45,978 bases of DNA from SAR202 cluster bacterium. Lineage in GTDB: Bacteria > Chloroflexota > Dehalococcoidia > Lucifugimonadales > UBA6952. Positions 18,541 through 31,670 of this stretch are shown here, one piece after another. The position numbers and the translations under genes are program-made. Under the pieces are notes generated by a model. That model saw nothing but the letters and a program-made list of their open reading frames with translations, did not search any database and had not been told where the DNA came from. Location: NCBI GenBank assembly GCA_009392515.1, contig VFGE01000032.1:1-45978 (forward strand), given 5' to 3'. The stretch's first letter is position 1, and every line of letters begins with the position of its first letter.

Positions 18541-20004
18541 TTATCTAGGTAATGCCCCCGGTAAACTCTGAGGTAATTCAGTAACTCCCATAAGATATTT
18601 ATCTATATGATATGCAGCTTCTCTACCTTCAGCTATAGCCCAAACAACAAGCGATTGTCCTCTATGCATATCGCCAGCAGAAAAAACCTTATCAATATTC
18701 GTCATATGTTGCATATTTGTATTAACGTTATTGCGTCCGTCAAGTTCAATTCCAAGTTGGTCAATAATCCCTTCTTGTTGTGGATGCACAAAACCCATTG
18801 CCAATAAAACTAAATCAACTTCTATTTCAAACTCAGTGCCCGGAATTTCTGACATTTTTGGCCTTCCATTTTCATCCTGTGTCCACTCAATTTTTATACC
18901 TTGTAATGATTTTAGTATACCATTCTCGCCAGAAAAGGATTTGGTTAGCACGCTAAATTCTCTTGTGCCTCCTTCTTCATGGGCAGAAGAAATTCTAAGA
19001 ATAAGAGGCCAATAAGGCCATGGATTATTGACTGATCTTTCAACTGGTGGCTCTGAAAGTAATTCGTATTGATAAATTATTTCTGCTCCTTGTCTATGTG
19101 CTGTTCCTAAGCAATCTGCACCAGTGTCACCACCACCAATAATAACAACCTTCTTACCTTCAGCAGAAATTTTTTTATCTGGATTTATATACTCTCCAGA
19201 AAGTTCTTTATTTTGCTGACTTAGATATTCCATTGCAAAATAAACCCCTTTAAGATCTCTTCCCGGGATCGGTAAATCCCGAGGTATAGTTGATCCTCCA
19301 CTTAAACAAATAGCATCATATGAGTCTAATAATTCATCGTGTTTTATATCAATTCCTATATTAGTTCCAGTTACAAACTTAATCCCTTCTTCAGACATTA
19401 AATTAACTCTTCTCTGAACAACAGATTTTTCTAGTTTAAATTCAGGAATTCCGATTCGTAATAATCCTCCAATGTAATCATCTCTCTCATAGACTGTGAC
19501 CGAGTGTCCAGATTTATTTAATTGATGTGCAGCAGCTAAGCCTGCTGGTCCTGAACCAACGATAGCAACCTTTTTTCCAGTTCTTATTTTGGGTTGTTGA
19601 GGCACAACCCATCCGTTTTCAAAACCTGTTTCTATAATCGATTTTTCAATGTATTCTATAGTCACAGGATCCTGATTAATATTTAAAACACAAGCTGCTT
19701 CACATGGAGCAGGGCAAATTCTTCCTGTAAATTCAGGAAAATTGTTTGTTGAATGCAATACTTCTAGTGCCTTTTGCCATTCGCCTTTATAGACTAGATC
19801 ATTAAATTCTGGAATTATATTTCCTAAAGGACATCCAGTGTGACAAAATGGAACGCCACAATCCATGCAGCGAGCTCCTTGATCTCTTATCTCTGATTCT
19901 GGCCATTTCAAATATATTTCTTTCCAATTTGCTATTCTTGCATTAGCATCTATTTTTTTTGGTGTTTCTCTTTTAAAATCCTTGAATCCCAATGGTTTAC
20001 CCAT
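18541..20004 (-). CDS. gltD: Glutamate synthase small subunit
   Basis: This 487-residue NADPH-binding FAD subunit of GOGAT delivers electrons to GltB. The N-terminal 4Fe-4S cysteines are seen in CMDCGVPFCHTGCPLGN and in RICPAPCEAACVL. The FAD Rossmann motif GSGPAGLAAAHQL lies near 150 and the NADPH motif GGGDTGADCLG near 290. A C-terminal FAD-contacting segment, SAGDMHRGQSLVVWAIAEGR, follows. The ATG overlaps the end of gltB by eight bases, so the two are translationally coupled. Confidence 0.97.
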   Translation of the reverse strand: MGKPLGFKDFKRETPKKIDANARIANWKEIYLKWPESEIRDQGARCMDCGVPFCHTGCPLGNIIPEFNDLVYKGEWQKALEVLHSTNNFPEFTGRICPAPCEAACVLNINQDPVTIEYIEKSIIETGFENGWVVPQQPKIRTGKKVAIVGSGPAGLAAAHQLNKSGHSVTVYERDDYIGGLLRIGIPEFKLEKSVVQRRVNLMSEEGIKFVTGTNIGIDIKHDELLDSYDAICLSGGSTIPRDLPIPGRDLKGVYFAMEYLSQQNKELSGEYINPDKKISAEGKKVVIIGGGDTGADCLGTAHRQGAEIIYQYELLSEPPVERSVNNPWPYWPLILRISSAHEEGGTREFSVLTKSFSGENGILKSLQGIKIEWTQDENGRPKMSEIPGTEFEIEVDLVLLAMGFVHPQQEGIIDQLGIELDGRNNVNTNMQHMTNIDKVFSAGDMHRGQSLVVWAIAEGREAAYHIDKYLMGVTELPQSLPGALPR

Positions 20005-23000
20005 TCAAAATCTTCTCCATTTCTTTCGGTAATGCTAAACCTTGTTGTTCCAAAACAAGCGCATATGCACTTGGCATAACTTTTATAAACGATTCTTTTG
20101 CCTGTTCCCAATTATTGAGAATTTTATTTGCATTTTCACTACCTGTATATTCAAGATGATTTTCAATCAAATTTTTCAAAACAATCTCATCTTCAGAAAT
20201 ATCTAAAGGGCCAATTTTTACCATTTCACCATTACATTTATCGATAAATGTTCCATATGGATCATAAACATATGAAATACCTCCACTCATACCTGCAGCA
20301 AAATTTCTGCCAGTACTTCCTAAAACCACAACGATACCACCAGTCATATATTCACAGCCATGATCACCAACACCTTCAACAACCGCCATTGCACCACTAT
20401 TTCTTACAGCAAACCGCTCGCCAGCCATTCCTCTCAAATACATTTCGCCACCAGTAGCGCCATACAAACTAACGTTACCAGTAATGATATTTTCTTCAGG
20501 GATAAATTTAGATTCCTTAGGAGGTTTTACCGAGATTCTTCCTCCAGACATTCCCTTACCAATGTAATCATTTGCATCACCTTCTAAATTGAAAGTTATT
20601 CCTTTGGCCAAAAAAGCCCCAAAGCTCTGACCTGCAGAACCTTTGAACTCTACATTTATGGTGTTCTCTTTTAGTCCATCCTCACCATATTTTTTTGCCA
20701 CCTCTCCACTTAACATCGCACCAACTGTCCTATTAGAATTCTTAATTTGATGTGAAATGGTTACCTTTTCCCCGGTATTAATAGCTAATTCTGCATTTTC
20801 AATCAAAATATTATCTAATGCTTTATCCAAAGCATGGTCTTGATCTGAAACACAGTATGTATCTACTTCGTCAAATCTTTGTGGTTTATATAGTAATTTA
20901 GAAAAATCTAATCCTTTTGCCTTCCAATGATCAATCGCTACTCTACTATCTAGCTTATCTACTCGACCAATCATTTCATTAACTGTTTTAAATCCTAAAC
21001 TTGCCATAATTTCTCGCATATGTTCAGCTATGAAATAAAAATAATTTATAACGTATTCAGGCTTTCCTGCAAAATTTTTCCTCAGTTCAGAATCTTGAGT
21101 TGCTATACCTACAGAACAAGCATTTAAGTGGCATTTTCTCAACATAATGCAACCCATTGTTACCAAAGGTGCTGTAGCAAAACCAAATTCCTCTGCGCCA
21201 AGCAAACAAGCAATTGCTACATCTCTTCCTGTTTTAAGTTGGCCGTCTGCCTGAACAACAATTCTCCCTCTTAAATCGTTTTCTACTAAAACCTGTTGAG
21301 TTTCAGCAATACCTAATTCCCAAGGCAATCCAGCATGTTTAATTGATGTTTCGGGAGAGGCTCCTGTTCCCCCACTATCTCCACTTATAAGCACGACGTC
21401 GCCATGCCCTTTTGATACACCAGCAGCAATGGTGCCAACTCCTGCTTCAGCTACTAGCTTTACATGTATTCTTGCATTTGAGTTTACATTTTTTAAATCA
21501 TGGATAAGTTGTGCTAAGTCCTCTATAGAATAAATATCATGATGGGGGGGTGGTGAAATTAATTCAACACCAGGCGTTGTATGTCTAACCCATCCAATAT
21601 AGTCATCCACTTTATGTCCTGGTAATTGCCCGCCTTCTCCAGGTTTTGAACCTTGTGCCATTTTAATTTGCAAATCTGTTGCATTGACTAAATAGTTAGT
21701 AGTAACACCAAATCTTCCAGAGGCTACTTGTTTTATAGCGCTGTTTCTATTTTCGCCATCTTCATCTAAAGAAAACCTTCTTGAATCTTCGCCGCCTTCC
21801 CCCGTATTGCTACGAGCTCCTATTTTGTTCATGGCAATAGCTAAGGTTTCATGGGCTTCAGGACTAATTGCTCCTAGTGATATAGCACCTGTAGCAAACC
21901 TTTTAACTATATTGTCGGCAGATTCAACTTCAGAGATATCTAAGGGTGTAGATATTTCCTTAAATTCTAATAAGCCACGCAAAGTAGATAATTGCTGATC
22001 TTGTTTATCAATCAATTCTGCAAATTCTTTGTAAACAGAATATGAGCCTATTCGAGCTGATTCCTGGAGTTTGGCTATAGCAAAAGGATTATACATATGA
22101 TATTCACCATCACGTCTCCATTGATATTGTCCTCCTGAATCCAAATCTAGTAATGTAGGACCTCTCTCCTCGGAAAAACCTTTAGAATGCCTTTCAATCA
22201 TATCTAATTCTAATTCTTCTATACCAATTCCACCAATTCTTGATGGAGTCCAACAAAAGTATTTTTCTATTAATTTATCATTAAAACCTATGCACTCAAA
22301 TATTTGAGCTCCACGATAACTCTGAATAGTAGAAATACCCATTTTTGATGCGATTTTTAACAAACCTTTGTGAATAGCTTTTTTATAATTTAGAACAGCA
22401 TATTCTAAATCTTTAACATTTATTTCTCCCTTATCTAACATTGAACCAAGAGTTGCGTAAGCTAGATAAGGATTAATTGCTGCTGCACCATAACCTAGCA
22501 AAAGAGCAAAGTGCATTACTTCCCTTGGTTCTCCAGATTCAACAATTAATCCAGCCTTGGAACGCAAACCTCTTCTAATTAAATCATGATGAACTGCAGC
22601 AAGGATTAAAAGTGAGGGAATTGCAGCCATTTCACCTGAAACCCCCCGATCAGATAAAATTATCAGGGTATTACCTTCATTTATAGCATCCGAAACTCTT
22701 TCACAAATTTTGTTGATAGTTTCTTCTAAATTCTCATTTTTATTTTCAATACTATACAAACAACTGACAGTTGCTGTTTTTAAACCAGGATTATTCAAGT
22801 TTTTTATTTGTGCTAATTCTTGATTAGTTAAAATAGGTGATGATAGTTTTAATTGCCGGCAATGAATGTCAGTTTCCTTAAACAATTCCTGCTCGCAACC
22901 AACAGGTGCCTCTAATGAAGTCACCAACTCTTCTCTTATTGCATCTAATGGCGGATTACTAACCTGTGCAAATAATTGTTTAAAATAAGAAAATACAGAT

Positions 23001-24547
23001 TGTGTTTTATTTGAAAGAATAGCGATAGGTGTATCTGTTCCCATAGAACCAATAGCCTCAGCTCCATTTTGTCCCATTGGTACTAAAAGCATCCTTAATT
23101 CTTCATCCGTATAACCGAAGGACCTTTGTAATTGTGATACATTCTCAATATTATCTTTTGTTTCGGCAGTAGATGTTTTAGGTAAATTCTCTAATCTAGT
23201 TAGATTTTCAGTCACCCATTTCTGATAAGGCTGTAGTTTAGCAAGATCTTCTTTTATTTCATTGTCAAAAATAATCCTGCCTTGTTCTGGGTCAACAATC
23301 ATCATTTTTCCTGGTTGTAGTCTTCCTCTGGTTTGAATTTTTTCAGAATCTAGTTCTAAAACACCTGTTTCTGAAGACATCACAATTAAACCATCATTTG
23401 TAACAGAATAACGAAATGGCCTTAATCCATTTCTGTCTAAATTGGCACCGATTTGTTTTCCATTGGTAAACGCAACGAGAGCAGGTCCATCCCAAGGCTC
23501 CATAAGACACGAATGATATTCATAAAATGCCCGAAGTTCAGGAGAAATAGAATTATCACCTTCCCACGCCTGTGGTACCATCATAGCCATTACATGTGGT
23601 AATGAACGACCACTCAATGTAAGTAATTCAAATACTTTATCTAGAGAAGCTGTGTCGCTATCGCCTTGTTCAAGTATAGGAACAATTTTTGTAACATCTT
23701 CCCCAAAAGAGTCAGATGTTATAATCTTTTCTCTAGAAGACATCCAATTACTATTTCCTCTAACAGTATTAATTTCACCATTATGGGCAACATATCTGTA
23801 AGGGTGTGATAATTTCCATTTCCCTAAAGTATTCGTACTAAATCGAGAATGAACTAATCCAAACCAAGATTTAAATAAAGTATCTTTCAAATCTGGATAG
23901 AAGTCTTTTACTTGTTCAGGGGTTAATAGCCCTTTGTAAACAATTGTTCGACAAGAAAAACTACAGAAATAAAAATCATCAGGACTGTTTAAATCTATTG
24001 AAGAAGAAGATATTTCTATCCTTCTTCTAAGTACGTATAATTTTTTTTCAAAATCATCTTCATTATTTATATTAGAAGGTTTTTTAACAAAAACTTGCAT
24101 AATCAAAGGCATAGAAGATTTAGCATCATACCCAATTATTTCATCCTTTACCGGGACTTCTCTCCATGACAATAATTCAATATTTTCGTCTTTAACTATT
24201 TCTTCAATTAGATTTTTGCAAACTTCTTTGTCTTTTGTATTATTGGGTATAAAAACCATACCTACGGCATATTCACCTATATCAGGTATATTCACATTGC
24301 TTGCCATTAATTGTTTTGCAAAAAATTCATGTGGAATTGAAAGTAATATACCTCCTCCATCTCCAGTATCAGGGTCAGCCCCACAAGCACCTCTATGGGC
24401 TAAATTATCCAGAATTGTTAACCCTTGCTCTATTATTTTATTTGAAGCCTTACCATGAATGTTCGCAACCATTCCAACACCACATGCATCGTGATCGAAT
24501 GATGGATAATACAAACCTTTATTTTTATTATTATAATTAAAACTCAC
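19997..24547 (-). CDS. gltB: Glutamate synthase large subunit
   Basis: This 1,516-residue enzyme makes two glutamates from glutamine and 2-oxoglutarate. Residues 1-21 are a short propeptide; cleavage would expose the Ntn nucleophile Cys22 in HDACGVGMV. The class II glutaminase domain runs to about 430, followed by a central domain, then the FMN-binding synthase barrel (GGQLPGHKVDDYIGW, SGDSGGTGASPETSIKHAGL). The 3Fe-4S cysteines lie in GCIMLRKCHLNAC near 1133-1145. A C-terminal beta-helix has many Gly repeats. Length matches bacterial GltB. It lies 11 bases after the second glutamine synthetase gene, giving a glnA-gltB-gltD operon for the whole GS/GOGAT cycle. Confidence 0.98.
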   Translation of the reverse strand: MSFNYNNKNKGLYYPSFDHDACGVGMVANIHGKASNKIIEQGLTILDNLAHRGACGADPDTGDGGGILLSIPHEFFAKQLMASNVNIPDIGEYAVGMVFIPNNTKDKEVCKNLIEEIVKDENIELLSWREVPVKDEIIGYDAKSSMPLIMQVFVKKPSNINNEDDFEKKLYVLRRRIEISSSSIDLNSPDDFYFCSFSCRTIVYKGLLTPEQVKDFYPDLKDTLFKSWFGLVHSRFSTNTLGKWKLSHPYRYVAHNGEINTVRGNSNWMSSREKIITSDSFGEDVTKIVPILEQGDSDTASLDKVFELLTLSGRSLPHVMAMMVPQAWEGDNSISPELRAFYEYHSCLMEPWDGPALVAFTNGKQIGANLDRNGLRPFRYSVTNDGLIVMSSETGVLELDSEKIQTRGRLQPGKMMIVDPEQGRIIFDNEIKEDLAKLQPYQKWVTENLTRLENLPKTSTAETKDNIENVSQLQRSFGYTDEELRMLLVPMGQNGAEAIGSMGTDTPIAILSNKTQSVFSYFKQLFAQVSNPPLDAIREELVTSLEAPVGCEQELFKETDIHCRQLKLSSPILTNQELAQIKNLNNPGLKTATVSCLYSIENKNENLEETINKICERVSDAINEGNTLIILSDRGVSGEMAAIPSLLILAAVHHDLIRRGLRSKAGLIVESGEPREVMHFALLLGYGAAAINPYLAYATLGSMLDKGEINVKDLEYAVLNYKKAIHKGLLKIASKMGISTIQSYRGAQIFECIGFNDKLIEKYFCWTPSRIGGIGIEELELDMIERHSKGFSEERGPTLLDLDSGGQYQWRRDGEYHMYNPFAIAKLQESARIGSYSVYKEFAELIDKQDQQLSTLRGLLEFKEISTPLDISEVESADNIVKRFATGAISLGAISPEAHETLAIAMNKIGARSNTGEGGEDSRRFSLDEDGENRNSAIKQVASGRFGVTTNYLVNATDLQIKMAQGSKPGEGGQLPGHKVDDYIGWVRHTTPGVELISPPPHHDIYSIEDLAQLIHDLKNVNSNARIHVKLVAEAGVGTIAAGVSKGHGDVVLISGDSGGTGASPETSIKHAGLPWELGIAETQQVLVENDLRGRIVVQADGQLKTGRDVAIACLLGAEEFGFATAPLVTMGCIMLRKCHLNACSVGIATQDSELRKNFAGKPEYVINYFYFIAEHMREIMASLGFKTVNEMIGRVDKLDSRVAIDHWKAKGLDFSKLLYKPQRFDEVDTYCVSDQDHALDKALDNILIENAELAINTGEKVTISHQIKNSNRTVGAMLSGEVAKKYGEDGLKENTINVEFKGSAGQSFGAFLAKGITFNLEGDANDYIGKGMSGGRISVKPPKESKFIPEENIITGNVSLYGATGGEMYLRGMAGERFAVRNSGAMAVVEGVGDHGCEYMTGGIVVVLGSTGRNFAAGMSGGISYVYDPYGTFIDKCNGEMVKIGPLDISEDEIVLKNLIENHLEYTGSENANKILNNWEQAKESFIKVMPSAYALVLEQQGLALPKEMEKILNG

Positions 24548-24558
24548 GACTCCCCTTC

Positions 24559-25905
24559 CTATAGCATCGATAGGTATTTATCTATCTCATAACCACTAAC
24601 GTGACGGCTATATTCAGCCCATTCTAATTTTTTATTTTTTATAAAGTTATAAAACGCATCTTCTCCAAGACAATTGTACATTAATTCACTATTCTCAAAA
24701 AAGTGCAATGCTTCCGAAAGATTAGTGGGTAAAGACTCTATACTCTGGGCACTTCTTTGAATCTGGTCCATCTTGTTTATATCTTGTTCAACAGGAATAG
24801 GAATCTCGTACTTGTTTTCTATACCTGCCAAACCCGCTGCAAGAATAGCACTAAATGCCAGATAGGGATTACATGCTGAATCAGGTGATCGATATTCAAT
24901 TCTAACAGAATTTTCTCTTCCTTTTCTGTATGATGGAACCCTAATAAGATCTCCCCTATTAAGTTTTGACCATGAAATGTATCCTGGTGCTTCAAATCCA
25001 GAAACAAGCCGTTTGTAAGAGTTGACCCATTGATTAGTTATAGCCGTAATTTCTTTGGCATGCTTCATAAGCCCAGCAATAAAATACTTCGCAGTATCTG
25101 AAATAAAATCGTCACCTGTTCCATCGTCTTTATAAAATTGATTTATATCTCCTTTAAACAAAGACATATCCATATGCATTCCATTACCATGTAAACCTTC
25201 TACTGGTTTGGGCATAAAACTCGCGTGAATTCCGTGTTTCTGTGCAATTTCTTTGACAGCAAGTTTATAGGTCATAACATTATCTGCCATAGTTAACGCA
25301 TCTGTATGCCGTAAGTTTATTTCATGTTGACTCGGAGAAACCTCATGATGGCTATATTCAACAGGTATTCCTATTTCTTCTAAGGCTAATACTGTTTCTC
25401 TTCGAAGTTCTGTTCCTATATCAGAGGTTTGGTCAAAATATCCAGCAGAATCTAATATTTCAGTTGAATTAGAGTCTTTGAAATAATAGTATTCTGTTTC
25501 TGGAGACAATAAAAAGGTGTAACCAAGCCGATATGCCCTTTCTAAGTTTGATTTTAGTATAGCCCTAGGATCGCCTAAATGAGGTGAACCGTCTGGTCGA
25601 AACACATCACAGAACATTTTACCAACAGCCCCATCTGAAGGACGCCATGGTAAAACCTTAAATGTGGTGGGGTCAGGAATTAAAACTAGGTCACTTTCCT
25701 CGTTTCTAGCTATTGCTCCTATAGATGCTCCGTCAAAAGTCATACCATCTCTTAGAGAATTTTCGAGCTCAGCCACATTTAAGGACACGCCCTTTAAGTT
25801 ACCTAAAATATCAGTAAACCAGAGTCGCACAAAACGAACATCACTGCCATGTACGGTCTCTGTGACAAATTTAATAGCTTCATCTCTACTTTTTTCTTGA
25901 TCCAT
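24559..25905 (-). CDS. glnA: Glutamine synthetase type I, alpha-like
   Basis: This 448-residue GS resembles the short GSI-alpha class of Bacillus: no 25-residue insertion, no adenylylation-site NLY segment, and a C-terminus (EYSRHVSGYEIDKYLSML) ending like B. subtilis GS. Active-site segments are clear: SPETEYYYF, HHEVSPSQHEINLR, GNGMHMDMSL, NSYKRLVSGFEAPGYISWS and RIEYRSPDSACNPYLAFSA. The Arg in IARNEESD corresponds to the feedback-sensing Arg62 of Bacillus GS (from memory). It heads the operon with gltB and gltD. Start ATG 25905 has only a weak GGA site and sits about 21 bases after a strong hairpin. Confidence 0.95.
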   Translation of the reverse strand: MDQEKSRDEAIKFVTETVHGSDVRFVRLWFTDILGNLKGVSLNVAELENSLRDGMTFDGASIGAIARNEESDLVLIPDPTTFKVLPWRPSDGAVGKMFCDVFRPDGSPHLGDPRAILKSNLERAYRLGYTFLLSPETEYYYFKDSNSTEILDSAGYFDQTSDIGTELRRETVLALEEIGIPVEYSHHEVSPSQHEINLRHTDALTMADNVMTYKLAVKEIAQKHGIHASFMPKPVEGLHGNGMHMDMSLFKGDINQFYKDDGTGDDFISDTAKYFIAGLMKHAKEITAITNQWVNSYKRLVSGFEAPGYISWSKLNRGDLIRVPSYRKGRENSVRIEYRSPDSACNPYLAFSAILAAGLAGIENKYEIPIPVEQDINKMDQIQRSAQSIESLPTNLSEALHFFENSELMYNCLGEDAFYNFIKNKKLEWAEYSRHVSGYEIDKYLSML

Positions 25906-26071: not shown

Positions 26072-27514
26072 TTAAGCATCAAAACTTAAATAAAATTCAT
26101 ATGGATGAGGGCGAAGCCTAACAGGATCTACGTCATTTTCACGTTTAAAATCAATCCATCCTCTAATAAGGTCCTCGGTAAAGACACCACCTTTTAATAA
26201 AAATTCATGGTCATCTTCTAATGCCTGCAGCGCTTCTTCCAAACTACTTGGAACTTGAGGTAATTTTGCCATATCTTCAGCACTTAATGAGAAAAGGTCT
26301 GATTCTAATGGGTCTCCTGGTTCATAGCCATTTTCAATACCATCTAATCCTGCCATTAACATTGCAGCAAATGTTAAATATGGATTACATGTTGGGTCTG
26401 CCGAACGGAATTCTACTCTCTTCGCTTTAGGATTTTGAAAATACATAGGAATCCTGCATGCTGCAGATCTGTTCCTTGCTGAAAGCGCCAAAATTGTTGG
26501 TGCTTCAAATCCAGGAGTTAGTCGTTTGTATGAGTTTGTAGTTGGTGCTGCCAAAGCCATTAATGCTTTTCCATGTTTGATAAGCCCACCAATATAGTTT
26601 AAAGCAAGCTTTGATAGACCAGCATATTCATCACCAGCAAATAACGGAACTCCGTCTTTCCAAATAGATTGATGTGTATGCATTCCTGTCCCATTATCAT
26701 TAAAGAGAGGTTTTGGCATAAATGTAACGACTTTATCATATTTAGCGGCTACATTTTTCACAACATATTTATAGTTCATTACATTATCTGCTGTTTGTAC
26801 AAGACTATCAAAAACTATATCTATTTCGCCTTGTCCTCCTGTAGCAACTTCATGATGATGTTTTTCAACAGCAATATTAAATCCATTTATTAAAGTCCTA
26901 ACCATTTCTGAGCGAATATCTTGTAAAGTATCAACAGGGGGTACAGGGAAATATCCTTCTTTATGTCTAGGCCTCATCCCTTTATTAAGTGTTGTACCGT
27001 CTAGCATTGTCAAATCACCAGAATTCCATATACCTTCATCTGAATCAACAAAATGATACCCGTGATTTGCTCCATAGCTAAATCTCACTGAATCAAATAT
27101 AAAAAATTCTACTTCCGGACCCCAAAATGAATTGTCACCAATTCCTGTGGTTTTTAAATATGCTTCAGCTTTTTTTGCAACATTTCTAGGGTCCCTAGAA
27201 TAACTTTCACCAGTCAATGGATCCCTTATATCTGCAATAACTGTTAATTGACCATCGTTAAAAGGATCTTTCTTAACGGTAGATACATCCGGAACCAGCA
27301 ACATATCCGATTCATCAATTGATTGAAAACCTCGTATAGATGATCCGTCAAATCCTGTTCCGTCTTGAAACAAAGACTCTGTAACTTCACTTGTGGGAAC
27401 AGAAACGTGTTGCCATGTACCTGGTAAATCTATAAATTTAATATCAAGGATATCACTCCCTGTATCTTGCATTAGTTTTAGTACATCGCTTATATTTTTT
27501 GGTTCATTTGCCAT
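26072..27514 (-). CDS. glnA: Glutamine synthetase type I, beta-like, with Phe at the adenylylation position
   Basis: This 480-residue GS condenses ammonia and glutamate with ATP. Segments seen: GTGFDGSSIRGFQSIDESDM near 52-71, GPEVEFFIFD near 129, HHHEVATGGQGEID near 217, NGTGMHTHQS near 275, a Tyr-Lys-Arg-Leu-Thr-Pro-Gly-Phe-Glu-Ala-Pro loop near 345, and KRVEFRSADPTCNPYL. Length fits GSI-beta. The C-terminal segment that holds the adenylylated Tyr in GSI-beta (KNLYDLP in E. coli) reads SDLFSLSAED here, with Phe near residue 408, so GlnE-type control at this site appears impossible. It has its own structured leader and probable GlnR-type promoter. The plain symbol glnA is used for both paralogues. 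Confidence 0.95.
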   Translation of the reverse strand: MANEPKNISDVLKLMQDTGSDILDIKFIDLPGTWQHVSVPTSEVTESLFQDGTGFDGSSIRGFQSIDESDMLLVPDVSTVKKDPFNDGQLTVIADIRDPLTGESYSRDPRNVAKKAEAYLKTTGIGDNSFWGPEVEFFIFDSVRFSYGANHGYHFVDSDEGIWNSGDLTMLDGTTLNKGMRPRHKEGYFPVPPVDTLQDIRSEMVRTLINGFNIAVEKHHHEVATGGQGEIDIVFDSLVQTADNVMNYKYVVKNVAAKYDKVVTFMPKPLFNDNGTGMHTHQSIWKDGVPLFAGDEYAGLSKLALNYIGGLIKHGKALMALAAPTTNSYKRLTPGFEAPTILALSARNRSAACRIPMYFQNPKAKRVEFRSADPTCNPYLTFAAMLMAGLDGIENGYEPGDPLESDLFSLSAEDMAKLPQVPSSLEEALQALEDDHEFLLKGGVFTEDLIRGWIDFKRENDVDPVRLRPHPYEFYLSFDA

Positions 27515-27614: not shown

Positions 27615-27667
27615 ATTATACCAAACAGTTAGAATTTTTCTTCGCTTTTTGGTTACAATTGTGTTAA
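27615..27667 (-). promoter_or_regulatory. glnA1 promoter with GlnR-box-like 11-bp direct repeat
   Basis: TATAAT (27615-27620, minus strand) is a consensus -10, but the -35 position (27638-27643) reads GAAGAA, which is poor and suggests activator dependence. Just upstream, written on the plus strand, GTTAC (27652-27656) and GTTAA(C) (27663-27668) form a direct repeat with an 11-bp period. This resembles the actinobacterial GlnR box GTnAC-n6-GnAAC (known from memory), with the second half matching GnAAC only if shifted one base. The repeat occupies about -44 to -59, a normal activator position. Confidence 0.55.
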
Positions 27668-27682
27668 CAAATTAAATACACT

Positions 27683-28888
27683 CTAGGCATCAGCACCATC
27701 AGCTACATATCCACGCTCTCCATGAGATGTTAAATCTGTTCCAATATCTTCATCGGTTTCAGAAACGCGTAATCCCATCACCATATCTAAGGCTTTAAGT
27801 ATTACTGCACTTACAATAAAACCATAAACAAGGGTAGCTACTACTGCTATTATTTGCTCAATCATAATTGATCCATTTCCTTCAAGTAGCCCCTTTGTGC
27901 CCCCTATGGCTTCGACTGCAAAAACTCCAGTCATAATTGCTCCCCAAATACCACCTATACCATGAACAGGAAAAACCTCTAAAGCATCGTCTAGATTAAA
28001 ATTTGAGCGCACTATAACTGCACCATAACAAAGAGCGCCAGCGCCTGCACCAATAACAAGTGCTCCTAATGGGTTTACAAAACCTGAGGCAGGAGTAATA
28101 GCCACCAAACCACCTACAGCTCCAGATGCAGCACCTACAGCACTAAATCTGCCAGTCTTTAGGTATTGTAATATCACCCATACTGTTAGAGCTGTTCCTG
28201 CGGCTATGTTTGTCACTAAAAAGGCCATAGTTGCCCGGGCATCAGATGCGAGTTCAGACCCTGCATTAAAACCAAACCATCCAAACCAAAGCAATCCTGC
28301 TCCTAATAAAACAAAGGGTACACTGTGTGGCTCAACTCCTGAACTTATATTTCTTCTAGGACCTAGAAGCCATGCTGCAGCGACTGCTGCAATTCCTGCG
28401 TTGATATGAACTACAGTACCACCAGCAAAATCTAAAGCACCTCTTTTAAATAACCAACCATCTGAGGCCCAAACCCAATGACAAATAGGAGCGTATACAA
28501 AAGTTAGCCAAAGTACTAAGAAAACCATATATGTTGAAAACTTAAATCTTTCAGCAAATGCTCCTGTAATTAGTGCAGGTGTAATAATTGCAAACATACC
28601 TTGAAATGCTACAAATATAATTGTATCTCCATCAGTTACGTCTAAACCATTTAAACCAATCATTTCTAAATTACCAATAAAAGCACCGCCACCACTAAAT
28701 GCTAAACTATACCCCCAGAGAACCCATACAATGGTTGCAAGGCCCATAGAAATAAAGCTGAACATCATGGTATTTACTATGTTTTTAGCTCGTACCAAAC
28801 CTCCATAGAAAAAAGCTAACCCGGGCGTCATTAATAGGACTAATGCACTCGCGGTGATCATCCATGCTAAATTACCAGTATCGTTCAT
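27683..28888 (-). CDS. amt: Ammonium transporter Amt
   Basis: This 402-residue integral membrane channel has 11 predicted helices. Family segments are clear: TPGLAFFYGGLVRAKN near 21-36, GAFAERFKFSTYM near 117, DFAGGTVVHINAGIAA with the first pore His near 165, and PVHGIGGIWGAIMTGVFA with the second pore His. The C-terminal tail (TDEDIGTDLTSHGERGY) has the conserved form that couples to PII gating, though no PII gene is adjacent. ATG 28888 is chosen over an upstream in-frame ATG at 28930 because TTGGAGG sits just ahead of it. Two repeat arrays for an OmpR-type regulator lie in its upstream gap. Confidence 0.96.
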   Translation of the reverse strand: MNDTGNLAWMITASALVLLMTPGLAFFYGGLVRAKNIVNTMMFSFISMGLATIVWVLWGYSLAFSGGGAFIGNLEMIGLNGLDVTDGDTIIFVAFQGMFAIITPALITGAFAERFKFSTYMVFLVLWLTFVYAPICHWVWASDGWLFKRGALDFAGGTVVHINAGIAAVAAAWLLGPRRNISSGVEPHSVPFVLLGAGLLWFGWFGFNAGSELASDARATMAFLVTNIAAGTALTVWVILQYLKTGRFSAVGAASGAVGGLVAITPASGFVNPLGALVIGAGAGALCYGAVIVRSNFNLDDALEVFPVHGIGGIWGAIMTGVFAVEAIGGTKGLLEGNGSIMIEQIIAVVATLVYGFIVSAVILKALDMVMGLRVSETDEDIGTDLTSHGERGYVADGADA

Positions 28889-28987
28889 TTTAACCTCCAA
28901 GTAGAATTGTCGAATAATAAATATCGACATTAGTGAAATAATTAAATTAATGATGCATTGGTAAAATTACATAGTTATTTCTTGTAT

Positions 28988-29003
28988 GTTAAATATTGGT
29001 AAA
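28988..29003 (-). promoter_or_regulatory. GlnR-type direct repeat upstream of amt (proximal)
   Basis: On the plus strand GTTAA (28988-28992), six bases, then GTAAA (28999-29003): an 11-bp-period direct repeat similar to that at glnA1. It lies 100 bases upstream of the amt start. A possible -10, TTTAAT (28941-28946, minus), is 41 bases further on. The background is very AT-rich, so chance matches are possible. Confidence 0.4.
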
Positions 29004-29029
29004 AAAAATAAAGAAATAATTACACAGAA

Positions 29030-29056
29030 GTTAATTAAATGTTAATTATATGTAAA
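29030..29056 (-). promoter_or_regulatory. Triple 11-bp direct repeat upstream of amt (distal)
   Basis: On the plus strand GTTAA (29030-29034), GTTAA (29041-29045) and GTAAA (29052-29056) follow each other at exactly 11-bp steps. OmpR/PhoB-family dimers bind such head-to-tail repeats. The array lies just downstream of the GlnR-like gene's stop codon, in the gap in front of amt. Confidence 0.5.
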
Positions 29057-29082
29057 TTTAGTGATTGGGTTTAGCAAAATAT

Positions 29083-29733
29083 TTAGATGAATTTATAGCC
29101 GACATTTCGTATAGTTTCTATAAAAAAATTACCGTTAATTTCTATCTTGCTTCTTAATCTTCTTATATGTACATCAACTGTACGGGTCCCACCATAATAA
29201 TCGTATTCCCATATATCCGTTAATAAAACTTCTCGAGAAAATACTCTACCTGGGTTTGCTGCCAAAATACAAAGTAATCTATATTCTTTGTACGTCAACA
29301 TTACTTTTGTATTTGCAACAAAAACCTCGTATTTCTCTGTGTCAATTCTTAGGTTTTGAGCCGTAATAATACTAGGAATAGAATTATTTATACCTAAATT
29401 ATTCTCAGACTTCTGCTTTATTCGTGCAGTAAATTCACCAAGGTGATATGGATTCGTTAAAAAATCGCGACCACCCCATGAACTATCATAAAAAGGAAGC
29501 ACTTCTTTTGTAACAGCTAAAAAAAATGGGACTCCAAGTTTTGTAGAAATGTCATTAGCTTTATTGATAACATCGTGATCTATTTTTGTAAGTTCAAGCA
29601 GAATCCCATCTAAACCTATTGAAGAATCTTCAGATTCCAAAATCGAAAAGAAAGAAATATCCTCTGCCTTGAGAGCAGATTCTAATTCTTCAGATATATC
29701 ACCATTAGTCGAAATAACATGTAAATTTAACAT
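29083..29733 (-). CDS. GlnR-like orphan OmpR-family nitrogen regulator
   Basis: This 216-residue regulator has a receiver-like N-terminal domain and an OmpR/PhoB winged helix (about 125-216). The DNA-binding half matches actinobacterial GlnR closely from memory: LTYKEYRLLCILA, PGRVFSREVLL, YYGGTRTVDVHIRRLRSKI and TIRNVGYKFI. The receiver lacks the key residues. The phospho-Asp position is Glu47 (ILLELTK), the N-terminal acidic pair is missing, and the usual Lys is Asn94 (FLTNPY). It therefore probably works without phosphorylation, as GlnR does. No histidine kinase is nearby. Adjacency to amt, both glutamine synthetase genes and gltBD, plus repeats at amt and glnA1, supports the role. It is probably co-transcribed with cysM 17 bases upstream. 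Confidence 0.85.
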   Translation of the reverse strand: MLNLHVISTNGDISEELESALKAEDISFFSILESEDSSIGLDGILLELTKIDHDVINKANDISTKLGVPFFLAVTKEVLPFYDSSWGGRDFLTNPYHLGEFTARIKQKSENNLGINNSIPSIITAQNLRIDTEKYEVFVANTKVMLTYKEYRLLCILAANPGRVFSREVLLTDIWEYDYYGGTRTVDVHIRRLRSKIEINGNFFIETIRNVGYKFI

Positions 29734-29750: not shown

Positions 29751-30719
29751 TTACCACCAAAGTTTGCTTTCAAGTTCTTCTTGAAGATCTTCATATTCTT
29801 TGGTCCATAAATTTGTACTAAGGTATTTCCAACCAGCGTCTGCTAATAGACAGACAATATTTGCTTTATCCAAACGTCTAGCCACCTTTAAAGCGCTTGC
29901 TACCACGGCTCCACATGATATTCCTGCAAAGATACCTTCGTCATCTAACAGCATTTTTGTTGCTTTAAACGCCTCTTCACTTGTCACCATTATTCTTGCA
30001 TCCAATAAGTCTAAATCTAATATGGGAGGAACAAATCCATCCTCTATACTTCTCAGAGCTTGTATAGCATCCCCAGGCTGAGGAGCAGCTGCAACAACTT
30101 TAATTTCTGAGTTAAATTCTTTTAATCTTCTGCCTGTACCCATTAATGTGCCACCTGTACCCAAACCTGCAACAAAAATATCAATTTCTGGTAATTGTTC
30201 TATTATTTCTTGCCCTGTCCCATAATAATGAGCTAAAGGGTTTGCTTCGTTCCCATATTGATAGGGGAAAAAATATTTCCCTGAGGCTACCATTTCTTTA
30301 GCAACATCTATAGATCCATTTGTGCCCTTAGCTCCGTCAGAAAAATGAATTTTTGCACCATAGGCAGTCAATAACTGCACTCTTTCTGGACTTACATTTT
30401 CAGGAAGAACAATTTCAAGTTTGTACCCTTTTAATTTACAAACCATGGCTAAACCTATGCCAGTATTTCCGCTTGATGGTTCAAGAACAGTGTCTCCCTT
30501 TTTAATTTCACCGTTCTCTTCTGCCATCTCAATCATTTGCAAAGCTATCCGATCTTTAACACTACCGGTAGGATTTGCTCCTTCTAATTTGGCATAAAGC
30601 CTCACATCTTCACTAACAGAAATATTTGGCATTTCAACTAAAGGGGTGTTTCCTACAGCTTTTAAAATCCCGGGGCGTTCAATTTGGTTATTATTCTTTG
30701 ATTTTAACTCTTTAGACAA
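29751..30719 (-). CDS. cysM: O-phosphoserine/CysO-dependent cysteine synthase-like PLP enzyme
   Basis: This PLP-dependent enzyme of about 323 residues belongs to the cysteine synthase family. The PLP Lys is in NPTGSVKDRIAL, the substrate loop is EPSSGNTGIGLA, and the phosphate-binding glycines are GTGGTLMGTGRRL. The C-terminus (ADAGWKYLST, ending LESKLWW) looks strikingly like mycobacterial CysM, which uses thiocarboxylated CysO as sulfur donor. TTG 30719 is preferred: a GGATAGGT site precedes it and overlap with the upstream gene is avoided. TTG 30773 would add 18 residues that do not look like the family. It follows the E1-like gene and precedes the GlnR-like gene. Confidence 0.88.
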   Translation of the reverse strand: MSKELKSKNNNQIERPGILKAVGNTPLVEMPNISVSEDVRLYAKLEGANPTGSVKDRIALQMIEMAEENGEIKKGDTVLEPSSGNTGIGLAMVCKLKGYKLEIVLPENVSPERVQLLTAYGAKIHFSDGAKGTNGSIDVAKEMVASGKYFFPYQYGNEANPLAHYYGTGQEIIEQLPEIDIFVAGLGTGGTLMGTGRRLKEFNSEIKVVAAAPQPGDAIQALRSIEDGFVPPILDLDLLDARIMVTSEEAFKATKMLLDDEGIFAGISCGAVVASALKVARRLDKANIVCLLADAGWKYLSTNLWTKEYEDLQEELESKLWW

Positions 30720-30736
30720 TATTATACCTATCCGAA

Positions 30737-31567
30737 TTAACCAACCAGTTCGCTTGAAGCTGGTAGTCCGCAAAATTCTAAATAATCAATAAGTTCTGTT
30801 TGGGATCCGTTACACAAAGGGCAGTCTTTATTTTTTCTATACTTCACAACCCTAAAGTCTAAACTCAATCCATCATATAGTAATAATCTATTTACTAAAG
30901 GTGTTCCTATACCTAATAGTACTTTAACAACCTCAGTTGCTTGAATACTTCCAATAGTGGCAGTAAGTGCCCCTAAAACACCAGCTTCGGCACAAGTTGG
31001 AACCGACCCTGGTGGTGGTGGCTCTTTAAACAAACATCTGTAACATGCATTATCCGTTCCAGGAATATAGGTTGTTGCTTGCCCATCAAACATAAGAATG
31101 CTTCCGTCTACTAGAGGTTTCTTTAAAAAATAGCAAGCATCATTAACAAGGTAACGGGTAGGAAAATTATCGGCACCATTTATAACAATGTCATATTGAC
31201 CAAGAATCTCCATTGCATTTGTAGAATTTATTGGGGTTTCGTGAGTTACAACATTCACATTTGGATTGTATCTTTTTAGAGTTCTAGACGCAGATTCCAC
31301 CTTGGGCATTCCGATTGATTCACTATCATGTAAAACCTGTCTTTGTAAATTTGTTAAATCTACTGTATCAAAATCAACAATCCCTATAGTTCCCACCCCG
31401 GCCAAAGCAAGGTAAAGAGCAACTGGGCCGCCCAGGCCTCCAGCTCCAATCACAACTGCTTTTGAATTTATCAGCTTTCTTTGGCCCAAACTACCTATTT
31501 GAGGCATAATTATATGTCTACTATACCTATTGACTTGTTCAGGCGTTAACGCATTGCCTTGAGTCAT
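30737..31567 (-). CDS. MoeB/ThiF-family sulfur-carrier adenylyltransferase without rhodanese domain
   Basis: This E1-like protein of about 276 residues adenylates the C-terminal glycine of a ubiquitin-fold sulfur carrier. Seen: RYSRHIIMPQIG, the nucleotide loop VVIGAGGLGGPVALYLA near 35-50, DFDTVDLTNLQRQ, the DNFPTRYLVND motif, a Cys in PTCAEAGVLG, and two zinc-binding pairs, CYRC and CPLC. It ends LIDYLEFCGLPASSELVG, where MoeZ-type relatives continue into a rhodanese domain, so that domain is missing and sulfur must come from another protein. ATG 31567 has GAGGGGG ahead of it. It leads the cysM-glnR run. Confidence 0.9.
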   Translation of the reverse strand: MTQGNALTPEQVNRYSRHIIMPQIGSLGQRKLINSKAVVIGAGGLGGPVALYLALAGVGTIGIVDFDTVDLTNLQRQVLHDSESIGMPKVESASRTLKRYNPNVNVVTHETPINSTNAMEILGQYDIVINGADNFPTRYLVNDACYFLKKPLVDGSILMFDGQATTYIPGTDNACYRCLFKEPPPPGSVPTCAEAGVLGALTATIGSIQATEVVKVLLGIGTPLVNRLLLYDGLSLDFRVVKYRKNKDCPLCNGSQTELIDYLEFCGLPASSELVG

Positions 31568-31670
31568 CACAGCCCCCTCAAGAAATTTTTGTTTCTTATG
31601 AATTATAGACTATACATGATATCTTAGATTTATGTAAAATAGCAAAATTAGGTCTATTTATCATTAAAGG

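Follow-up and report, generated by a model that had tools for sequence, protein, structure and literature searches.

The window, a stretch of 46 kb that was analysed as a whole, is contig C32 of an assembly of 1.55 Mb (62 contigs, 98% complete). Its minus strand carries, in this order, moeB, cysM, the regulator gene P0001, amt1, glnA1, glnA2, gltB and gltD. A sequence-only reading of this DNA had placed the regulator beside amt and two genes of the glutamine synthetase type; our gene calls agree, with gltBD on the same strand as well. The genes and features that concern us are:

29083..29733, minus strand: P0001, a GlnR-type regulator of 216 aa with an atypical receiver and an OmpR/PhoB winged-helix DNA-binding domain
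29030..29056, minus strand: predicted three-unit operator array upstream of amt1, TTTAC-n6-TTAAC-n6-TTAAC in gene direction
28988..29003, minus strand: predicted two-unit operator upstream of amt1, TTTAC-n6-TTAAC in gene direction
27683..28888, minus strand: amt1, ammonium transporter, start ATG at 28888 with GGAGG in front
27652..27667, minus strand: predicted two-unit operator upstream of glnA1, TTAAC-n6-GTAAC in gene direction
27620-27615, minus strand: -10 element of glnA1, TATAAT, extended by a preceding TGG, with a poor -35
26072..27514, minus strand: glnA1, type I glutamine synthetase (TIGR00653, 612 bits, cut-off 429)
24559..25905, minus strand: glnA2, second gene of the glutamine synthetase type
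19997..24547, minus strand: gltB, glutamate synthase large subunit
18541..20004, minus strand: gltD, glutamate synthase small subunit

For amt1, a longer open reading frame reaching 28930 is a less likely start than the ATG behind GGAGG. The 166-bp gap upstream of glnA2 contains no array. The only other PF00909 gene of the genome, amt2, lies on contig C28. No kinase gene is present in the cluster around P0001, whose neighbours are moeB, cysM and amt.

By Pfam, the sole match of P0001 is a Trans_reg_C domain, and its receiver domain is unmatched. Its top three sequence matches in the PDB are the actinobacterial GlnR entries 8hig, 8hml and 8hih, and a search of a Streptomyces genome with P0001 returned first the GlnR gene of that genome, identified by its full-length match to M. 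tuberculosis GlnR (8hih, 1.6e-90). In the reverse search, Streptomyces GlnR found P0001 first in this genome (2.4e-31), with the next match at 2e-18; other OmpR-type regulators are present in this genome. The recognition helix of the Trans_reg_C domain is conserved, reading TRTVDVHIRRLRSK in P0001 and TRTVDVHVRRLRAK in Streptomyces GlnR. Phylogenetic placement of the regulator, which the sequence-only reading had proposed, was carried out in a tree of 88 rows, where P0001 groups with actinobacterial GlnR and sits inside the Chloroflexota branch. GlnR-type proteins form one clade (100/99) with the canonical OmpR/PhoB regulators outside it, and P0001, a long branch of unusual composition, falls within a Chloroflexota clade (96/94). 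This nested position lends no support to a recent transfer from Actinobacteria. The actinobacterial rows cluster at 99/96, including one row from a Myxococcota MAG, and the Chloroflexota rows at 89/76, including one Massilia row; the sister relationship of the two groups is poorly supported (85/27).

The structure model of P0001 (pLDDT 90, pTM 0.62) matches the isolated GlnR receivers 4o1i (Z 13.8, 2.4 Å over 110) and 4o1h (Z 13.5, 2.3 Å over 107) and the GlnR DNA-binding domain 8hig (Z 15.9, 1.4 Å over 93, 48% identical). Since the domains of YycF, PrrA and PhoP reach Z-scores slightly above those of GlnR against the same model, structure alone cannot separate GlnR from other OmpR-type regulators.

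An alignment of receiver rows confirms that P0001 carries Glu47 and Asn94 where the sequence-only reading had noted the loss of the phospho-acceptor Asp and the conserved Lys. The acidic pocket and the Lys are indeed gone, but this loss turns out to be a family trait, whereas Glu47 is unusual. GlnR-type proteins have lost the acidic pair and mostly also the Lys (retained in 4 of 38 Chloroflexota rows), whereas the receiver Asp persists in most rows, 34 of 38 from Chloroflexota and 18 of 22 from Actinobacteria. Canonical paralogs keep both Asp and Lys in 22 of 22 rows; P0001 has neither, and a canonical receiver of the PhoB/PhoP type, with Asp, acidic pair and Lys, was not found in it. In the available text of the published work, the receiver Asp48 of M. 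smegmatis GlnR is essential (PMC4950008), and Asp50 of A. mediterranei GlnR is unphosphorylated and joins the homodimer together with Arg52 and Thr9 (PMC10704036). The position of Arg52 is Thr49 in P0001; among actinobacterial rows 18 of 22 have Arg there, among Chloroflexota rows 3 of 38. With two residues of the Asp50-Arg52-Thr9 dimer contact of GlnR replaced (Glu47, Thr49), we file P0001 as a variant and not as a typical GlnR member. Glu47 also rules out aspartyl phosphorylation at the usual place as the carrier of the signal.

Upstream of amt1 and glnA1, the direct repeats described in the sequence-only reading lie exactly where it put them and at exact 11-bp steps: GTTAA at 29030 and 29041 and GTAAA at 29052, GTTAA at 28988 and GTAAA at 28999 and, for glnA1, GTTAC at 27652 and GTTAA at 27663. 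A scan of both strands of the 46 kb window with GT[TA]A[AC]-n6-GT[TA]A[AC], a pattern picked after the sites had been seen, gave 4 matches. All 4 share a strand and fall within the amt1 or glnA1 gap; the remaining 11 gaps of at least 60 bp have zero. These repeats could be chance matches in AT-rich intergenic DNA, and the sequence-only reading had named an equal frequency of such repeats in random DNA as counting against its proposal. In dinucleotide shuffles the amt1 gap proved far beyond chance (3 observed, mean 0.03, with 0 of 5000 shuffles reaching 3), whereas the glnA1 gap (1 observed, mean 0.018) gave P = 0.017, so the glnA1 pair on its own is modest evidence.

Letter for letter, the published box GTnAC-n6-GnAAC has 0 matches in the window; the AC-n9-AC spacing of GlnR boxes is present upstream of amt and glnA1 in this genome. 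With a matrix built without this genus, the amt1 array ranks first in the window when three units are scored and the glnA1 site ranks first with two units, at 14.3 just above a site inside gltB at 13.5. The arrays of this genome (TTAAC, TTTAC, ATAAC) are weaker than the consensus of the order.

Over the whole genome the two-copy pattern shows no enrichment (66 matches versus 142 for the reversed control), and therefore it is the location of a site that counts. For the three-copy pattern GTWA-n7-GTWA-n7-GTWA there are 3 matches at 2 places (4 for the reversed control), one place upstream of amt1 and the other upstream of amt2, the genome's only amt genes. The motif scan that the sequence-only reading had advised was uninformative for pairs taken alone; the triples are restricted to the two amt upstream regions. 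The array of amt2, which that reading had not seen and which played no part in defining the motif, is the longest of the genome, with four phased units in gene direction (TTTAC-n6-ATAAC-n6-GTAAC-n6-TTAAC). It is kept in the congener G001 as a 57-column stretch with one mismatch, while the flanks diverge. The two-copy count below its control and the modest P value at glnA1 are what speaks for chance. It is largely refuted by the triples found at amt genes only, the conservation of the amt2 array between diverged flanks and the order-wide counts of the spacing-6 box given below. The confinement of the window matches to two gaps and the occurrence of similar operators in regions of 50-60% G+C argue in the same direction, and we consider chance extremely improbable.

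As a means of finding further regulon members here, the two-copy motif was rejected: besides amt2, no evident nitrogen gene lies downstream of the 55 distinct sites, which come from the 66 matches with the 4 of the window and about 7 others left aside, and 9 of the 55 have no overlapping open reading frame of at least 120 aa. A stricter triple, KNAACA(n5)x3, has 0 matches in this genome. G001, of the same genus, has the amt2 array and neither a GlnR-like gene nor a GlnA match. We tentatively read these absences as an assembly gap, and G001 was dropped as a natural negative control, GlnA being likewise missing there. Its second, distant amt (C15) has no phased triple.

Across the order, we gathered 114 upstream regions from this and related genomes (83 amt, 31 glnA1), with 5 named amt/glnA loci outside the list of handled genomes left out and 2 duplicates removed; amt1 of this genome is represented in the set by a 132-bp piece without arrays. 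A GlnR-like gene was scored as present at a best E of <=1e-26, our own cut-off, based on one protein. The 51 genomes of the order with such a gene provide 102 amt/glnA regions, among which GTnAC-n6-GnAAC at spacing 6 occurs in 36 in gene direction and 5 in the other direction; spacings of 3-5 and 7-10 gave 0 or 1 of 102. The triple [GT]n[AT]AC-n6 was found in 33 of the 102 regions, against 7 in reverse orientation and a shuffle mean of 0.06 (maximum 2); these counts come from related genomes whose independence is incomplete. The published box is missing in 66 regions and the triple in 69. None of the 33 triple regions comes from this genus, so the order-wide test is independent of the sites on which the finding rests. 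The operator unit of the order is GTAACAnnnnT, and the A after AC, which was not a selection criterion, is present in 110 of 130 units. It agrees with the M. smegmatis GlnR consensus Gn2AC-n6-GnAACA as given in the accessible part of PMC3662644.

Counted by genome, 29 of the 51 that have a GlnR-like gene show the triple upstream of amt or glnA1, as does 1 of the 10 that lack one (Fisher P = 0.012); by region, genomes without the gene have it in 1 of 12. A second array in that group, at amt2 of G001, is missed by the triple expression. Of the 79 genomes of the order that were scanned, 32 carry the strict triple. A wider sample from the phylum (121 genomes, including 2 from the order) yielded 9 genomes with it and 10 matches versus 5 in control columns, which is near background. 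At this sensitivity, the arrays are, within Chloroflexota, a feature of this order.

Grouped by hand, the strict-triple matches form 46 clusters, and 36 of these precede amt, glutamine synthetase, P-II or urtA. In 15 the next gene is amt and in 19 it encodes a glutamine synthetase, either of type I or GlnII; P-II and the urea-transporter gene urtA follow in 1 each. Some assigned genes begin up to about 600 bp downstream. The other 10 stand before an amidase-AllH operon (1), a CBS-domain protein (2), a pstA-like gene (1) or no gene (1), or are GGAACA repeats of G023 (5); the amt of L313 and the pstA-like gene were named by eye.

A different regulator could use such arrays. If they were PHO boxes, a PhoB/PhoP-type regulator would tie amt and glnA to phosphate. 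PHO boxes too are 11-bp direct repeats that occupy the -35 position beside the -10, the genome holds other OmpR-type regulators, and one strict array in relatives stands ahead of a pstA-like gene (L339). In Streptomyces, moreover, PhoP competes with GlnR at amtB, according to the accessible part of PMC5826061. However, the array before the pstA-like gene comes from G057, a genome without a GlnR-like gene at our cut-off, and it is the 1 cluster of 46 ahead of a phosphate gene, against 36 ahead of nitrogen genes. The triples are commoner in genomes with a GlnR-like gene, and the unit GTAACA fits the GlnR box. We therefore regard a phosphate regulon as quite improbable.

Promoter geometry bears on the mode of action. 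In 12 of 37 arrays a -10-like hexamer resembling TATAAT begins 10 nt past the last half-site; among the other offsets up to 59, none has more than 3. This peak places the half-sites at -35, as in the pho boxes of OmpR/PhoB activators. At glnA1, the consensus -10 TATAAT and poor -35 that the sequence-only reading had described are both there, with TG in the extended position; here TATAAT begins 31 nt past the array, and the 10-nt geometry of the relatives is not followed. The amt2 promoter loosely fits this geometry, with TAGATT at 10 and TATAGA at 8, and amt1 would fit weakly through its second array, which has a weak putative -10-like TAACTA 10 nt downstream (28977-28972). In S. coelicolor, amtB has three GlnR boxes and is promptly activated (PMC5826061).

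The protein might also bind the arrays as a repressor, or answer to a signal other than nitrogen, so that amt and glnA stay off until another input relieves them. Glu47 could, for example, lock the receiver in one state, and M. smegmatis GlnR both activates and represses (PMC3662644). Against this, an array that takes the place of the -35 and ends 10 nt before the -10 is the arrangement of an activator, and glnA1 has an extended -10 with a poor -35. We judge repression or a foreign signal to be unlikely.

Orthology, operator conservation, target identity and promoter geometry in relatives were computed; from here we infer binding by P0001, activation over repression and nitrogen limitation as the signal. 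Very probably, judging by the sequence evidence, GlnR-family P0001 binds 11-bp-phased half-sites and activates amt1, amt2 and glnA1 when nitrogen is short. The protein would bind head to tail on half-sites of the form [T/G/A]TWAC in gene direction, its targets in this genome would be amt1, amt2 and glnA1, and nitrogen shortage would lead it to activate both amt genes and glnA1. Where a promoter is typical of the order, the array would replace the -35, with the -10 ten nt past the last half-site; at glnA1 here it would act from further upstream of an extended -10. The suggestion that the logic of GlnR operates outside Actinobacteria gains support at the sequence level from orthology (tree and reciprocal best match), GlnR-box operators throughout a Chloroflexota order and common target genes.

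P0001 resembles GlnR of Streptomyces, Mycobacterium and Amycolatopsis as an ortholog by tree and reciprocal best match and in having a receiver without acidic pocket or Lys, and its DNA-binding domain is 48% identical to that of S. erythraea GlnR. The GTnAC-n6-GnAAC box is shared through the relatives of this genome, and so are the targets amt and glnA, joined in the relatives by glnII and P-II. It differs in its Chloroflexota host, in Glu for Asp and Thr49 for Arg52, and in a gene position between moeB-cysM and amt-glnA-gltBD, with no P-II gene found by a PF00543 search. The regulon is like that of GlnR on all tested points except the Asp-centred receiver contact. With PhoB/PhoP and their PHO boxes it shares a winged-helix fold and 11-bp direct repeats replacing the -35; unlike them it lies in the GlnR clade, which leaves canonical regulators outside (100/99), has nitrogen-gene targets and has no kinase gene in its cluster. 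With GlnR/TnrA of Bacillus it shares only the name and the control of glnA: those proteins are of the MerR family, and P0001 has no MerR domain by Pfam. In the available text of PMC10704036 they belong to another protein family.

P-II (PF00543) gave no match in this genome or in G001, though two amt genes are present. The same search found it in 41 of 79 genomes of the order, often adjoining amt, and in 13 of 14 control genomes. A real absence would mean that the nitrogen signal cannot come through P-II in this genome. It is conceivable, and we put it forward tentatively, that this genus has a GlnR regulon that works without receiver phosphorylation or P-II and senses nitrogen otherwise, and that the regulon existed before Actinobacteria and Chloroflexota diverged, or passed between them early. 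P0001 might, for example, directly contact glutamine synthetase or a metabolite.

Published descriptions, in their accessible parts, present GlnR as a regulator of Actinobacteria whose input signal is unresolved. In the open-licence literature we found no paper on GlnR in Chloroflexi, Chloroflexota or Dehalococcoid organisms and nothing relevant on SAR202. The spread of a GlnR regulon through a Chloroflexota order suggests how ammonium assimilation is controlled in organisms represented in this analysis mostly by metagenome assemblies, and a regulator-operator pair present in both phyla points to an old split or a transfer. P0001, a naturally occurring GlnR that lacks the receiver Asp and apparently has no P-II beside it in the genome, leaves fewer suspects for the signal question.

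Several further observations were made along the way. The genes cysM and moeB (29751-31570) lie directly upstream of P0001, and the regulators of the relatives L009, L011, L014, L017, L021, L026 and L031 likewise have either or both of them as flanking genes, a link to sulfur assimilation that a nitrogen role of the regulator leaves unexplained. Some MAGs with the labels Latescibacterota, Omnitrophota and Myxococcota carry GlnR-type regulators as well (L042, L044, L064, L091); binning errors are possible there. The regulators L013 and L022 are separated by zero branch length, yet their genomes belong to different families (G012, f12; G070, f20), which possibly reflects a binning artefact or recent transfer. 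The GGAACA-type 11-bp tandem repeats of G023, at five places (for example C1:1428893-1428942), match the strict pattern and look like another element, and a GlnR-like gene is absent from that genome at our cut-off. In G029 (C7:45008-46211), amt lies in two overlapping frames, that is, a frameshifted gene or a sequencing error. At L346 (G064:C74), a strict array stands ahead of an operon with an amidase and an AllH-like gene, which suggests the breakdown of nitrogen compounds as an additional target.
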